DNA of 56,086 nucleotides from Gemmatimonadales bacterium (GCA_007695195.1 REEG01000136.1:1-56086), one strand, 5' to 3'; shown: positions 31,056 through 49,886, counted from the stretch's first letter. Notes: generated by a model from the sequence alone, not told the origin. A program made the numbers and translations.

Positions 31056-32534
31056 TCAACGGGATTGTAACAAAGCGTTCAGGAGCTCCCGGCGCTGGAC
31101 CTTCCCCAGGGCGTTTCGGGGAAAGGGGCCCACCCACCGGAGCTCACTGGGGCGGAAGATGGTGGGAAGTGATTCCAGCAGCGGGCCGAGCTCCTGCTCC
31201 AGCTTCCCACGCTCCCTTTCCACGCGCTCCATCCCACCGGGATCTTCCACCTTCCCCCCCTCCATCAGCAGGGTCAGCCCCTCGTCGGGGGCCGGCGCCA
31301 CCACCACCTCGGGCAGGAGAATGTCCACCCCGGACTCAAGCCATAGACGGCGAATGGTGCTCTCCACCAGAGCGGGCGAGATCATCTCTCCTCTCCGCTT
31401 GAAGCTCCAGGCGCTGCGCCCCCGAAAGTAGAGGCGGCCGTCGTCCCTGTGGCCCAGGTCGTCACCGGTGGGGAGGAAGCGCCCTCGAACACGTTGCCAA
31501 CCCGCATCCCCGGGAGAGCGAATGGCCACCGCCTGCCCCGGACTCCGGAAGCACCGGCCGCCACCGTCCACCGCCGGGGGCGGGCTCAGCTCGACCCCGG
31601 GAAGAGGCTCCCCGATATCCCCGTCCATGGCGGAGATACCGGGCCTTGAGAAGATGCCGGGCTCGGAGAGGATGCCGGGCTCGGAGAGGACGCCGGGCTT
31701 GGTATGGGTCAATGCGGGGCCGGCCTCGGTGAGGCCATAGCCCACGGTATGACGCACACCGGGCAGAAGGCGTTGGAGGCGCTCCAGATCGGAGCGCAGC
31801 ACCAGATCCCCACCGGAGATGGATACCCCCCGCACCCGTTCCAACCGCTCCCGAGCGACGGCGGGAAGCTCATGGGGCTCCGGAAGCCCACGAATCATGG
31901 CGGGCACGAAGGGGAGGAGGAGGGGCGCTCCGGATTCCGGTCCGGCCGTCCCCACCCCGCCGGTGAGCTCCGCCGGCCGCGCGCCTTCCAGCGGCCCCAC
32001 CGGACCCGTCAGCCCCGTCAGCCCCGTCAGCCCCGTCAGCCCCGTCAGCCCCCAGAGGAACGCACCCGTCTCGAACCGATGGAAGGGGCGGACCGATCCA
32101 CCGAAGATCCGCGACAGGAAGAAGCACAGGACGGCCCCGAAGGCGTGGAACACGGGGACGTGGAGCACCACCTCGATGCCGGATTCCAGCTCCAGGTGTC
32201 CCGCCACCGCCTCCACATTCCACTGGACGCTTCGGCGGTCCAGGGCCACGAGGCGTGGGGCTCCGGTGGTACCCGAGGTGAGGAGAAAGAGGTGGAATCC
32301 GGGCTCCAGCCCCTCGAGGAAGATGTCGTTGGCACGTCCCCGGAGTCGTCCGGACTGGACCTTGAAGCCCCGAGGCAGACCCAGGTCCCCCAGCCAGTCC
32401 TCAGTCGACGAAAGCCCCGGGACCGCCGGATTGAGGAGGAGGACGGACCGATCCTCATCCCAGCATCGCCCCAACACCTCCAGCGTTTCCGGCGTGTTCC
32501 ATGAGGCGCGGACCTCCACCCCCGGCACCGTCAC
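31056..32534 (-). CDS. AMP-forming acyl/aryl-CoA ligase-like adenylating enzyme
   Basis: Adenylate-forming enzyme activating a carboxylic acid. Motifs: P-loop LLTSGTTGAPR, GYGLTEAGPAL, PTGDDLGHRDDGRLYFRGR and the C-terminal lysine region NALGKVQRREL. It is short (492 residues) with an abbreviated N-terminus. Two in-frame tandem arrays lie in the core: five LTG tripeptides before the middle of the domain and four PGI-type hexapeptides just after the GLTEAGP motif. It starts with GTG overlapping the stop of the ammonia-lyase gene (GTGA), so a cinnamate- or coumarate-like product of the lyase is the best candidate substrate. This pairing resembles phenylpropanoid and aryl-polyene starter pathways. 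Activity is inferred; no acyl-carrier protein or ketosynthase is adjacent. Confidence 0.82.
   Translation of the reverse strand: MTVPGVEVRASWNTPETLEVLGRCWDEDRSVLLLNPAVPGLSSTEDWLGDLGLPRGFKVQSGRLRGRANDIFLEGLEPGFHLFLLTSGTTGAPRLVALDRRSVQWNVEAVAGHLELESGIEVVLHVPVFHAFGAVLCFFLSRIFGGSVRPFHRFETGAFLWGLTGLTGLTGLTGLTGPVGPLEGARPAELTGGVGTAGPESGAPLLLPFVPAMIRGLPEPHELPAVARERLERVRGVSISGGDLVLRSDLERLQRLLPGVRHTVGYGLTEAGPALTHTKPGVLSEPGILSEPGIFSRPGISAMDGDIGEPLPGVELSPPPAVDGGGRCFRSPGQAVAIRSPGDAGWQRVRGRFLPTGDDLGHRDDGRLYFRGRSAWSFKRRGEMISPALVESTIRRLWLESGVDILLPEVVVAPAPDEGLTLLMEGGKVEDPGGMERVERERGKLEQELGPLLESLPTIFRPSELRWVGPFPRNALGKVQRRELLNALLQSR
31638..31703. repeat. 18-bp tandem repeat inside the ligase gene
   Basis: About four copies of an 18-bp unit (consensus GCCGGGCTCGGAGAGGAT) occur in frame, two of them nearly perfect and the outer ones diverged. 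On the minus strand they encode the PGxxSE/R-type hexapeptides directly after the GLTEAGP adenylation motif. The frame is kept, so copy-number change would lengthen or shorten a surface loop without a frameshift. Confidence 0.85.
32005..32049. repeat. Five perfect 9-bp tandem repeats inside the ligase gene
   Basis: CCCGTCAGC is repeated five times without a mismatch, encoding Leu-Thr-Gly repeats on the minus strand. Complete identity suggests recent expansion by slippage. It sits between the acid-binding region (VFHAFGAVLC) and the central SISGGD segment. Confidence 0.9.
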
Positions 32535-34099
32535 GGCGGTGGGCAGCGTCGGATGTGATGGGCGAGTCCGGCCAGGGCGGCGGAGTATCCCTTATCACCG
32601 GACACACCTCCCATGGCATCACGGACCTGATCGAGCCACGCTCCGAAGCCGTCTCCCACGTTGCTCCGCAGCTCCACCGCCCGGGCCGCCATGAGGGTGT
32701 GGGCGGAAACCAGCGCCGCGGCCGCTCCCACCTGTCGCCCGAGGGCGGTGGCGGCGGCCATGGCATTGGACACCACATCCTGATTGTGACCCTCGGCAGA
32801 GCGGGCGAAGGGGGCGGACGGGAGGGCTCCCCGCTGCAGCTCCATGGCCAGGGCGGTGGCCGTCTGATGGACCCCTTTCAGGCCGTGGGAGCCGGGCACG
32901 CCGGGCGTGGCGAGATTCCGGGGAAGTCCCCGGTCACCGGCCACCAGGAGGAATCCCTGCCGATCCAGCAGATCACCCACGCGAGCCAATCCCGCCGACA
33001 CCAGGTCTGCGGCAGCGGCCACATACCCTCCGAAGAAGTTTCCACCGGAGAGGAAGGGGGATGGATGGGAGCCCTCTCCCGGCGCGTCCACTTCCGGCGC
33101 GTCCGCCCGGAAATCCCTCCACCAGGGCGTGTCGTCCGAGACCCAGATGGGGTTGTCGCTGACCCCGTCCAGTTCCTGGAAAAGCCAGCGGCCCGCTACC
33201 TCGTGCCCCTCCCGGACCGGTCCCAGGAGCTGGGGGGCACACCGGAGGGAGTACGGATCCTGGAGGGGACCCGAGGCAGGCGGTGCAATGGGCTCGCTCC
33301 CCCGCAGGCGTCCTCGGAGCAGGCGGGCCACCTCCTCCTGTCCCGGGTGTCGACGGAGGGGAGGTCCGTTCATGACCTCACTCCATGCCTCGGCCCGCAC
33401 CCCCAGCGCCCATCCGGTGGCGGCAACGCCGACCAGGGCCCACCGGAGCAGGCGGTCGGCCTCCGTCCAGGATAGAGCCGCGCAGGAGGCGGCTCCCGAC
33501 AGGCCGTTGACCAACGCCAGCGCGTCCCGGCCCACCAGCTCCAACGGCTCGACACCGGCGGCGGAGAGGGCCTCCGGCCCGGACACGCGGGACTCGCCTT
33601 GCCAGGCCGGAACGTCCTCACCGGCCAGAAGGCGGGCCAGCGGAGCCATGGACACCAGATCGCCGCTAGCCCCCAGGGAGCCGGACGAAAGGAGGACCGG
33701 GGCCACCTGGGCTCCGATCAGGCGCACCAGGGCCGTGACCGCCTGAGGGCTCACCGCCGACGCCCCCTGAGCCAGGACATGGGCCCGGGCGATGACGGCG
33801 GCCCGGCAGGCCCGGGGAGGGAGGGGGGGACCCACCCCGGCGTCCAGATACCGCGCCAGATGGAGTTGGAGCCCGGCACGTTCGTGGGCGGAAAGCACAC
33901 CCACGGCGTCTCCGCCGTAGGCTGTGTTCGCCCCGTAGACGGCCTGGTCCGCCTCCAGTTCCTCGTCCAGCGCACGCCGGCCCTGGACCAGGCGATCCAG
34001 GACCGGGGACTCAAGAACGCAGAGGGGCGATTGGAGTTCCGCCAGGGTCCAAAGCGCCTCCGGCGTCAATGGATCCATGCCCAGCCGGAAGGCATTCAC
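32531..34099 (-). CDS. Aromatic amino acid ammonia-lyase (HAL/PAL/TAL family)
   Basis: MIO-dependent lyase that removes ammonia from an aromatic amino acid, cytoplasmic and tetrameric in the family. 522 residues. Catalytic Tyr55 lies in VYGANTAYG and the MIO-forming Ala144-Ser145-Gly146 in SLGASGDL; QDPYSLRC and FFGGYVAAAAD are family blocks. At the selectivity position, where HAL has Ser-His, this protein has Tyr84-Leu85 (LARYLDAGVG), closer to the Phe-Leu of PAL or His-Leu of Rhodobacter TAL. The late motif is GHNQDVVS, also PAL/TAL-like. This argues against histidase, as does the lack of other hut genes. It is coupled by GTGA to an AMP-forming ligase. Phe versus Tyr preference is open. Confidence 0.88.
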   Translation of the reverse strand: MNAFRLGMDPLTPEALWTLAELQSPLCVLESPVLDRLVQGRRALDEELEADQAVYGANTAYGGDAVGVLSAHERAGLQLHLARYLDAGVGPPLPPRACRAAVIARAHVLAQGASAVSPQAVTALVRLIGAQVAPVLLSSGSLGASGDLVSMAPLARLLAGEDVPAWQGESRVSGPEALSAAGVEPLELVGRDALALVNGLSGAASCAALSWTEADRLLRWALVGVAATGWALGVRAEAWSEVMNGPPLRRHPGQEEVARLLRGRLRGSEPIAPPASGPLQDPYSLRCAPQLLGPVREGHEVAGRWLFQELDGVSDNPIWVSDDTPWWRDFRADAPEVDAPGEGSHPSPFLSGGNFFGGYVAAAADLVSAGLARVGDLLDRQGFLLVAGDRGLPRNLATPGVPGSHGLKGVHQTATALAMELQRGALPSAPFARSAEGHNQDVVSNAMAAATALGRQVGAAAALVSAHTLMAARAVELRSNVGDGFGAWLDQVRDAMGGVSGDKGYSAALAGLAHHIRRCPPP

Positions 34100-34147: not shown

Positions 34148-34486
34148 TCAGCCCACCACCTCCAGGGGGCCGTGGTCATCACAGTGGTCCCCATGGGGAT
34201 GATGCAGGCGTCCATCCACCAGATAATCGGTGTGGTCGCCGTGGGGGACGGCCTCATGGCCACAGTCCGGCCCGTGCTGGTGCTCCGGGTCACACCCGGC
34301 AGCGGGCTTGCACTGCGCAGGGTTGGTCTCATCCACGGGGATCACGTGCTCATCCACATGGTCGCCGTGGGGATGGTGGAGATGGCCGTCATGGAGGTAA
34401 TCCACATGTCCCTCGTGGACGACCGCAGTATGGCCGCACTCCGGGCCGTGCTCGTGCTCATGATCGGGATGCTTGCTGCAGGTCAT
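34148..34486 (-). CDS. Histidine-rich duplicated metal-binding protein
   Basis: 112 residues with a very high His, Asp and Cys content and two tandem copies of one module: EHGPECGHTAVVHEGHVDY / QHGPDCGHEAVPHGDHTDY, each followed by a LHHPHGDH segment. Such proteins bind Zn, Ni or Co and accompany metal-responsive regulators. AGGAGA lies 7 bases before the ATG. It is 22 bases downstream of the ArsR-type gene on the same strand, so it is probably regulated by it. There is no signal peptide, so a cytoplasmic metal buffer is likeliest. Confidence 0.8.
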   Translation of the reverse strand: MTCSKHPDHEHEHGPECGHTAVVHEGHVDYLHDGHLHHPHGDHVDEHVIPVDETNPAQCKPAAGCDPEHQHGPDCGHEAVPHGDHTDYLVDGRLHHPHGDHCDDHGPLEVVG

Positions 34487-34508: not shown

Positions 34509-34844
34509 TCAGGGTTCGTCTGCGTGGTCCAGGGCGTCCCGGACCATGCGCACCACGTGCTCGTCGGCCAACCGGTAGTACATGTGCTTCGATTCCCGCC
34601 GACGGAGCACCAATCGAGCCCTCAGAAGATGATGGAGGCGGGCCGAGACGGTGCTGAAGTTATCGTCGTCACCCACCAACTCGGAGACGCAGCGCTCAGC
34701 CTGGCCCAGCTTCACCAGGAGGCGTAGTCGCTCCGGATCGCCCAGCGCCCGGAAGAGCTCCGCGGTGCGCTCGAGTTGTTCCCCGGACGGGAGGCTCGCG
34801 TCGAGCTCTGCCGGGGTGTGTTCACACGCTTTTTCGGTCTCCAC
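34509..34844 (-). CDS. ArsR/SmtB-family transcriptional regulator
   Basis: 111-residue winged-helix repressor (ELFRALGDPERLRLLVKLG, then the recognition-helix region FSTVSARLHHLLRARLVLRRRESKHMYYRL). The start GTG 34844 follows GGAGG by 5 bases; in-frame ATGs at 34856 and 34859 lack a site. A His/Asp-rich C-terminus (DEHVVRMVRDALDHADEP) fits the alpha-5 metal site of SmtB/CzrA-type sensors, suggesting Zn, Co or Ni. Cys residues near the N-terminus (KACEH) could add ligands. It heads the operon with the His-rich protein. Confidence 0.88.
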   Translation of the reverse strand: METEKACEHTPAELDASLPSGEQLERTAELFRALGDPERLRLLVKLGQAERCVSELVGDDDNFSTVSARLHHLLRARLVLRRRESKHMYYRLADEHVVRMVRDALDHADEP

Positions 34845-35328
34845 CGCTCCCTCCATCATTCCATGGACTGTTGGAATATGCAGCGGCCCGCAGCCGAACA
34901 CAAGGAATTTCGGCTCTTCTCCGATTTCCGTACTGAACGAGCTGGTGCCGCCCATCCACGCCCTTTCTCCGTCCCCGTCCTCGCGCACGTCAAGTCCTCG
35001 TCCTCGTATCCCTCGAGAGCCCCACACCGGAGTGCCCCCCAGGTGGTCGTGCACCCCCGGGAGTGCCCCCTGGGGCTTTGTTCTTGGAGCGTGTTGGTGG
35101 CGGGTCCCGATGCAGGATCACCTTCTGAGGCTGTGCCCGTGGGAATGGGGGTTTGCCCGCGGGGATAGGGATGTTCGCGTGAGGATGTACGACCCTCATC
35201 CGCGCCCCGCCAACAGCAACCCAGAACGAACGCTGAGGGGCACCACCAGGCACCTGATACCAACGCAGCTGAAGGGCCCCCGAGGGGAGGCACGACGGGC
35301 CCCGGGACGGCCCCCGCTCAGACCGCCA
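34845..35328. other. 484-bp region without a convincing gene
   Basis: Between the ArsR-type gene and the end of the metallophosphoesterase gene I see no protein with a recognisable family or a good ribosome site; the open frames here are Pro/Gly/Arg-rich. It contains a repeated GGAGTGCCCCC motif (near 35023 and 35061) and a short GCCCC/GGGGC hairpin at 35065-35076 followed by TTTGTTCTT on the plus strand, but no plus-strand gene feeds it. It should hold the arsR promoter. A small RNA cannot be excluded. Confidence 0.5.
34858..34877. promoter_or_regulatory. Possible ArsR operator
   Basis: ATTCCA and TGGAAT form 6-bp arms with an 8-base spacer just upstream of the chosen arsR-type start. Autoregulation from a site overlapping the promoter is normal for this family, whose operators are imperfect AT-richer inverted repeats. 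The position fits but the arms are short. Confidence 0.3.
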
Positions 35329-48878: not shown

Positions 48879-49886
48879 ATGGACCATGGGCTCCCCTCCC
48901 GTGCCCGCATCGCCGGCATGGGACACTTCCTTCCGCCCCGCGTTGTCACCAATGACGACCTGTCCCGGCTCATGGATACATCGGATGAATGGATCCGGGA
49001 GCGTACGGGAATCCGCGAGCGACGCTTCGTGGACGAGGGCACGTCCTGCACCGATCTGGCCGAGGCGGCATCCCGTCGGGCTCTGGAGAATGCTGGGTGG
49101 AAGGCGGAAGATGTGGAGTTCATCCTCTTCGCAACCCTCTCGCCGGACCTCTTCTTCCCAGGGAACGGGGCGCGCCTCCAGCACCAGCTCGGGCTGGGCC
49201 CCATCGGCGCTTTGGATCTCAGGACCCAGTGCACCGGGTTCGTGTACGCCCTGTCAGTGGCCGATGCCCTGATCCGGAGTGGTCAGTACCGACGAATCCT
49301 GGTGGTGGGCGCCGAGGTCCAGTCCAGGGGACTCCGCATGGACGACGAGGGACGGGACACGGCGGTTCTGTTCGGCGACGGCGCCGGAGCCGCCTGCGTG
49401 GAAGCCGGCGATGACGAACGGGGGTTCCTGGCACACAGCCTCCACAGCGACGGCGCCAACGCCCTGGACCTCTGCGTCCGGAAGCCGGGCTCCCTCCAGC
49501 TCCCCTTCGTCTCGGCGGAAGACATCGCGGCAGGCGACACAGCGCCCCACATGAATGGGCGTGAGGTCTTCCGGAATGCGGTGCGGCGCTTCCCTGAGGC
49601 CATCCAGGAGGTGCTCGCCAGGGCGGGTATCCCGGCGTCGGAGCTGAAGCTCCTGGTGCCCCATCAGGCCAACGCCCGCATCACGGAGGCGGTGCGACGG
49701 CGGATGGAGCTGCCCCATGAAAAGGTGGCCTCCAACATTGAGCGCTACGGGAATACCACGGCCGCCTCCATCCCCATCGCCCTCTCCGAGGCGGTGGAGG
49801 AGGGACGGGTGAAGCAGGGCGACCTGGTCTGCCTGGCGGCCTTCGGGGCTGGATTCACATGGGGCGCCACGCTGCTACGATACTGA
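48879..49886 (+). CDS. fabH: Beta-ketoacyl-ACP synthase III
   Basis: Starts fatty-acid synthesis by condensing acetyl-CoA (or a branched starter) with malonyl-ACP. 335 residues with the full triad: Cys118 in LRTQCTGFVYAL, His262 in VPHQANARI and Asn292 in ERYGNTTAAS. MDTSDEWIRERTGIRERR is the FabH N-terminal signature. GGAGGA lies just before the ATG. It stands alone rather than in a fab cluster, so a specialised KAS III acting on another starter, for example the aryl-CoA made 15 kb away, cannot be excluded, but the sequence looks like ordinary FabH. The 186-bp upstream gap contains no clear promoter. Confidence 0.9.
   Translation: MDHGLPSRARIAGMGHFLPPRVVTNDDLSRLMDTSDEWIRERTGIRERRFVDEGTSCTDLAEAASRRALENAGWKAEDVEFILFATLSPDLFFPGNGARLQHQLGLGPIGALDLRTQCTGFVYALSVADALIRSGQYRRILVVGAEVQSRGLRMDDEGRDTAVLFGDGAGAACVEAGDDERGFLAHSLHSDGANALDLCVRKPGSLQLPFVSAEDIAAGDTAPHMNGREVFRNAVRRFPEAIQEVLARAGIPASELKLLVPHQANARITEAVRRRMELPHEKVASNIERYGNTTAASIPIALSEAVEEGRVKQGDLVCLAAFGAGFTWGATLLRY

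Follow-up and report, generated by a model that had tools for sequence, protein, structure and literature searches.

A coupled aromatic ammonia-lyase and aryl-CoA ligase in a Gemmatimonadales genome as a candidate source of the PYP chromophore

The DNA analysed here (the window) is a stretch of 56,086 nucleotides from a Gemmatimonadales bacterium (GCA_007695195.1 REEG01000136.1:1-56086). Its reverse strand carries two adjoining genes, both with a GTG start: one for a predicted aromatic amino acid (tyrosine-type) ammonia-lyase of 522 aa (32531..34099, (-)), assigned from PF00221, a PDB match, and phylogenetic trees, and one for a predicted AMP-forming aryl-CoA ligase of 492 aa (31056..32534, (-)), assigned from PF00501 and conserved motifs. 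As the first-pass annotation of this DNA had described, the stop codon of the lyase gene (TGA) overlaps the start of the adenylating enzyme, in the 4-bp sequence GTGA (32531..32534, (-)). This overlap probably couples translation of the two genes, and gene overlaps recur in relatives, as ATGA at loci L003 and L103 and over 11 bp at L004 and L005. The assembly that contains the window (G000) comprises 3.92 Mb in 306 contigs and is 96% complete; the pair lies on its contig C205, and the lyase is the only PF00221 match found in it.

The absence of ketosynthase, carrier protein, and hut genes from the vicinity, also part of that annotation, holds for the genes directly beside the pair, where none of these was identified. 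The window does, however, encode a FabH-type ketosynthase III at 48879-49886, 15 kb from the pair, and hutU is present on another contig. Directly upstream of the lyase are genes for a histidine-rich protein of 112 aa and an ArsR/SmtB-type regulator (34148-34486 and 34509-35054, (-)), and at the related locus L002 a gene for a Zn/Cd-type P-ATPase follows the ligase. A link between metals and the lyase-ligase pair is possible.

The PF00221 (Lyase_aromatic) model matches across the whole lyase (E=6.7e-105, 352 bits, gathering cut-off 27.3). This score and the Ala-Ser-Gly triad place the protein in the MIO aromatic amino acid lyase superfamily. The residues pointed out previously were all recovered: the MIO triad Ala144-Ser145-Gly146 (codons 33662..33670, (-)) lies within SLGASGDL and aligns with that of other MIO enzymes, the selectivity pair Tyr84-Leu85 (33845..33850, (-)) lies within ARYLDAGVG, and the GHNQDVVS motif spans residues 437-444 (32768..32791, (-)). 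The closest PDB match, by sequence as well as by fold, is the TAL of Rhodobacter sphaeroides (2o6y/2o78), the fold being that of a monomer model (pLDDT 76) built from five sequences and weak around the MIO loop (141-149).

Tyr84 and Leu85 align with His89 and Leu90 of RsTAL, with Ser-His in PpHAL, and with Phe-Leu in AvPAL. The pair thus differs from the commonly cited ones, as had been remarked, but it is not rare among the right relatives, since Tyr-Leu recurs in PYP-adjacent lyases of Bdellovibrionota and in a group of lyases from aryl-polyene-type clusters of the same phylum (class C). Because it is common to both, Tyr-Leu alone does not fix the substrate, and it was rejected as a mark of PYP lyases. 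Of two features expected of a TAL, the His at the first selectivity position is replaced by Tyr84, and the Gln in motif 2 is present as Gln440 of HNQD. A Gln at this position is characteristic of TAL and PAL, rather than of HAL, which carries Glu (PMC3992019). As FlxA, a proven TAL, combines a HAL-like motif 1 with the TAL/PAL-type residue in motif 2 (PMC3992019), the Gln is the better guide, and the first selectivity position is not decisive.

The first-pass annotation had suggested a survey of whether the two genes are conserved together, and the pair is indeed kept in six genomes, three each from Gemmatimonadota and Bdellovibrionota. Of 154 genomes in the order, three have the window-type ligase (G000, G074, and G075), each time directly after a window-type lyase. 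In the two other Gemmatimonadota genomes, identity to the window protein is 57-58% for the lyase and 48% for the ligase; in the three Bdellovibrionota genomes (loci L004, L005, and L103, referred to as class A), these values are 35-38% and 33-36%. Loci L004 and L005 were found in the first homologue search, the third through its PYP. Because the adjacent pair recurs in other genomes of both phyla, the pairing reflects more than chance. With a six-row lyase profile, whose rows include the lyases of the window, G074, and G075, G075 scored 772 bits and G000 760 bits among 395 genomes sampled from the phylum, and all others scored at most 301.

In phylogenetic trees, the window lyase grouped with those of L002 and L003 (100), then with class A (99/96), and then with a second group of Bdellovibrionota lyases, class B (97/94); class B sits on a long stem, so that its grouping with class A is less sure than that of class A with the window. 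HALs, the cyanobacterial PAL, and the proteobacterial TAL all fell on the other side of the lyase trees. The phylogeny against these enzymes had been proposed beforehand, with a grouping among histidases as the outcome that would count against a PAL/TAL-like lyase; no such grouping was found, and both the tree and the residues support a lyase of PAL/TAL-like, not histidine, type.

The ligase matches PF00501 (AMP-binding) with 59 bits (E=3.8e-16, cut-off 29.9). Its P-loop (TSGTTG, residues 86-91, 32262..32279, (-)), the YGLTEAG and TGD motifs, R373, and the C-terminal lysine K478 in the NALGK motif (31101..31103, (-)) are conserved across a six-member ligase family. With the PF00501 match, the P-loop, the TGD motif, and the C-terminal Lys mark the protein, at the level of sequence, as an AMP-forming acyl- or aryl-CoA ligase. 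It has a short N-terminus and low-complexity inserts, one of which is a non-conserved 9-bp tandem repeat coding for GLT repeats (32005..32052, (-)) that is absent from the Bdellovibrionota relatives. The modelled fold matches AMP-forming ligases in general, MenE and 4CL among them, with modest TM-scores. In the ligase tree, the protein joined class A (100/98), with class C as the neighbouring group (88/90), and lay apart from the proteobacterial pCL. On TIGR02372, the model for the PYP-type 4-coumarate:CoA ligase, it scored 23 bits (equivalog cut-off 334.7), where a proteobacterial pcl reaches 343 bits. TIGR02372 was also rejected as a pCL marker across the order, where it matches only generic acyl-CoA ligase C-termini.

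Photoactive yellow protein (PYP) is a blue-light sensor, the known chromophore of which is p-coumarate. In all three class A Bdellovibrionota genomes, pyp lies one gene upstream of the lyase-ligase pair, in the order CheA-like kinase, PYP, a small protein of no known family, lyase, and ligase. These loci share with the window a pair of the same clade, its order and coupling, Tyr-Leu, and the NQD motif, but the pyp and CheA-like kinase genes of their gene run are absent from that of the window. The PYP of L004 and L005 forms a C-terminal domain (TIGR02373 E=1.5e-29 and 1.5e-28; PDB PYP E=4e-21). Among 291 Bdellovibrionota genomes, PYP was found in 11, and in 7 of these the genes for a Tyr-Leu lyase and a ligase lie only a few genes away from it (L004, L005, and L103 of class A; L097-L100 of class B). 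In an eighth (G331), a class B pair lies on another contig, and the pyp contig is cut nearby. All eight of these class A/B lyases carry Tyr-Leu. That the 8 genomes with class A/B lyases all fall among the 11 PYP genomes of 291 corresponds to a hypergeometric value of 1e-13, a figure that characterises this set but is no unbiased test, as 5 of the 8 were first found through PYP. Likewise, a search of Bdellovibrionota with profile A3 was partly circular, its rows including the 7 top matches, and only the score gap and the new member L173 were used from it. The small protein directly after pyp is conserved at 164-173 aa (L004:9341-9859, L005:9490-9984, and L101:10421-10942), and in L101 it is kept although no lyase follows. 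A second PYP-like protein, annotated as 'phosphonate transporter', is encoded at L126:11062-11496, on a plasmid stretch with a true pyp.

A PYP homologue is also encoded in G000 itself (C152:14594-14923; TIGR02373 E=5e-25). The protein (L057:9761-10336) has 191 aa with an N-terminal CxxC...CxxC ribbon, and carries 9 of 9 chromophore-pocket residues, including Y42, E46, and C69 (residue list from PMC12826048). It scores 88.5 bits on TIGR02373, below the equivalog cut-off of 143, which no genome of the order reaches; this model was built on four seeds (PMC9664959). The pair-bearing genome G075 encodes a PYP with 8 of 9 pocket residues, while none was found in G074, a pair-bearing genome that is 75% complete. 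In G000, pyp and the two enzyme genes do not form one operon, as the pair is on C205 and pyp on C152. In Gemmatimonadota, pair and PYP lie on different contigs and are co-present in 2 of the 3 pair genomes (p about 0.004-0.03 before kinship correction). Four further genomes (G068, G078, G080, and G086) have a PYP of the same type, with 9 of 9 pocket residues, and lack the pair, their lyases being Ser-His histidases. PYP genomes lacking the pair are cases that the literature expects: about 5% of pyp operons include TAL and about 32% include pCL (PMC12826048), and for the rest the enzymes are presumed to be encoded elsewhere in the genome, or uptake to take their place (PMC12826048; see also PMC9664959). 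Across the Gemmatimonadota PYP homologues L057, L058, L059, and L061-L064, the N-terminal ribbon reads ICAWC...SHGIC..C, while a second PYP family of the order has Phe at position 42 in most of its members.

Taken from these comparisons, the pair probably makes the p-coumaroyl chromophore precursor for PYP, acting in trans. The lyase would convert L-tyrosine to p-coumarate and NH3 by means of its MIO group, and the ligase would use ATP to turn p-coumarate into p-coumaroyl-CoA by way of p-coumaroyl-AMP. The p-coumaroyl group would then be transferred onto a cysteine (the Cys69 equivalent) of the PYP encoded on the other contig, yielding a blue-light sensor. It is very likely that the product of the pair is a hydroxycinnamoyl- or cinnamoyl-CoA, and we consider PYP its likely main target. 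Tyrosine is favoured over phenylalanine as the substrate because the relatives adjoin PYP, with p-coumarate as its known chromophore. The minimal phenylpropanoid-type module of the first-pass annotation stands insofar as an aromatic lyase is coupled to a ligase, but since relatives adjoin pyp and a PYP is encoded in the same genome, it is better read as a PYP chromophore pathway. The chemistry of these steps follows from the enzyme families (Kyndt et al., as cited in PMC9664959 and PMC12826048), while substrate and target are inferred.

Most likely, this is the known pathway of TAL, pCL, and PYP with a divergent enzyme pair that is detached from the pyp gene. Like the Halorhodospira/Rhodobacter pathway (TAL, TIGR02372 pCL, and TIGR02373 pyp), it combines the same two enzyme types, with a short ligase adjoining the lyase, and a PYP with Y42, E46, and C69 in the genome, and it is the R. 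sphaeroides TAL that the lyase matches best in structure. Unlike in that pathway, the lyase carries Tyr-Leu instead of His-Leu and belongs to a different clade, the ligase falls outside TIGR02372, and pyp lies on a different contig, outside the operon.

Three other roles for the pair were weighed. That the lyase is the histidase (HutH) of this genome was considered since hutU is present (G000:C299:1048-2718, L192; 875 bits) and the window lyase is the sole PF00221 gene found, while a Ser-His HAL is encoded in G067-G069, genomes of the same genus. A HAL gene could plausibly have been lost from an assembly of this completeness and fragmentation, however, and G075 carries a lyase of this type as well as a HAL. 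Although it shares the MIO family PF00221 with HutH, the window lyase differs from it in specificity residues and tree position: Tyr-Leu replaces Ser-His, Gln440 replaces the Glu of HAL, the hutH model gives 228 bits where 539 are required, and a clade with HALs was rejected (AU p=4e-7). Residues and tree thus rule against HutH, leaving this identity highly improbable. Also quite unlikely is a lyase with phenylalanine or some other aromatic amino acid as its substrate, or with aminomutase activity, in which case the product would be a cinnamoyl- or beta-amino-acyl-CoA for some other use. PAL and aminomutase models do match the lyase, weakly, and our literature search found no assay of Tyr-Leu lyases, with Tyr at the His89 position, nor of PYP enzymes of Gemmatimonadota; against this, the relatives adjoin PYP, and the tree separates the lyase from PAL.

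The pair could instead supply a p-coumaroyl- or cinnamoyl-CoA starter for a polyketide, made by the C26-encoded type III polyketide synthase of this genome or by an unseen aryl-polyene synthase, which we regard as unlikely. The synthase on C26 belongs to the chalcone-synthase family (L159:8531-9775; PF02797 E=8e-27), and all three pair genomes have a type III synthase, the close form of which occurs in 10 of 154 (p=2e-4 before kinship); it is, however, unlinked to the pair and also present in 7 genomes without it. In Bdellovibrionota, class C lyases with Tyr-Leu are surrounded by genes for ketosynthase, ACP, a FAD enzyme, and a ligase distantly related to that of the window, resembling aryl-polyene starters, and the clusters L193-L198 (ketosynthases, ACP, Tyr-Leu lyase, halogenase-like FAD enzyme, and short ligase) are probably aryl-polyene-type pigment clusters. 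The class C ligases are moreover the nearest outgroup of the window ligase. Both enzymes nevertheless group with PYP-adjacent class A and not with class C, and neither a ketosynthase nor a carrier protein was seen next to the pair, be it in the window, in L002/L003, or in the class A loci. A similar comparison holds for flexirubin/aryl-polyene initiation, where a TAL (FlxA) and a divergent 4-coumarate-CoA ligase (FlxY) feed a p-coumaroyl thioester (PMC3992019): the enzyme types are alike, but the window locus has no ketosynthase, ACP, or dehydratase, and the lyase lacks the HAL-like motif 1 of FlxA and scores 184 of 700 bits on the FlxA model.

With PYP chromophore supply as the preferred reading, the pair is a candidate for the 'missing' TAL and pCL of PYP bacteria, a gap left where the rest of the pathway could not be placed (PMC12826048). 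More tentatively, PYP chromophore synthesis may have been assembled more than once, with the Tyr-Leu lyases and ligases of classes A and B separate from proteobacterial TAL and pCL, different ligases recruited each time, and the enzymes acting in trans on zinc-ribbon PYPs in Gemmatimonadota. If true, a separate Tyr-Leu line would account for some of the 'missing' TAL genes. The pair offers a searchable signature, a lyase with Tyr-Leu and HNQDVVSN and a coupled short ligase, and is physically linked to pyp in the Bdellovibrionota loci. For these bacteria, most of them uncultured, blue-light sensing would become part of the likely biology, and the rule that predicts lyase substrates from one residue pair needs more entries.

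Two further observations concern genes outside the window. All six genomes with the ribbon-type PYP also carry the close form of the type III polyketide synthase, which occurs in four more as well. In genome G053, a PF00221 protein (L029:1375-3069) has Ala-Cys-Gly in place of the MIO Ala-Ser-Gly, together with an Asn-His selectivity pair.
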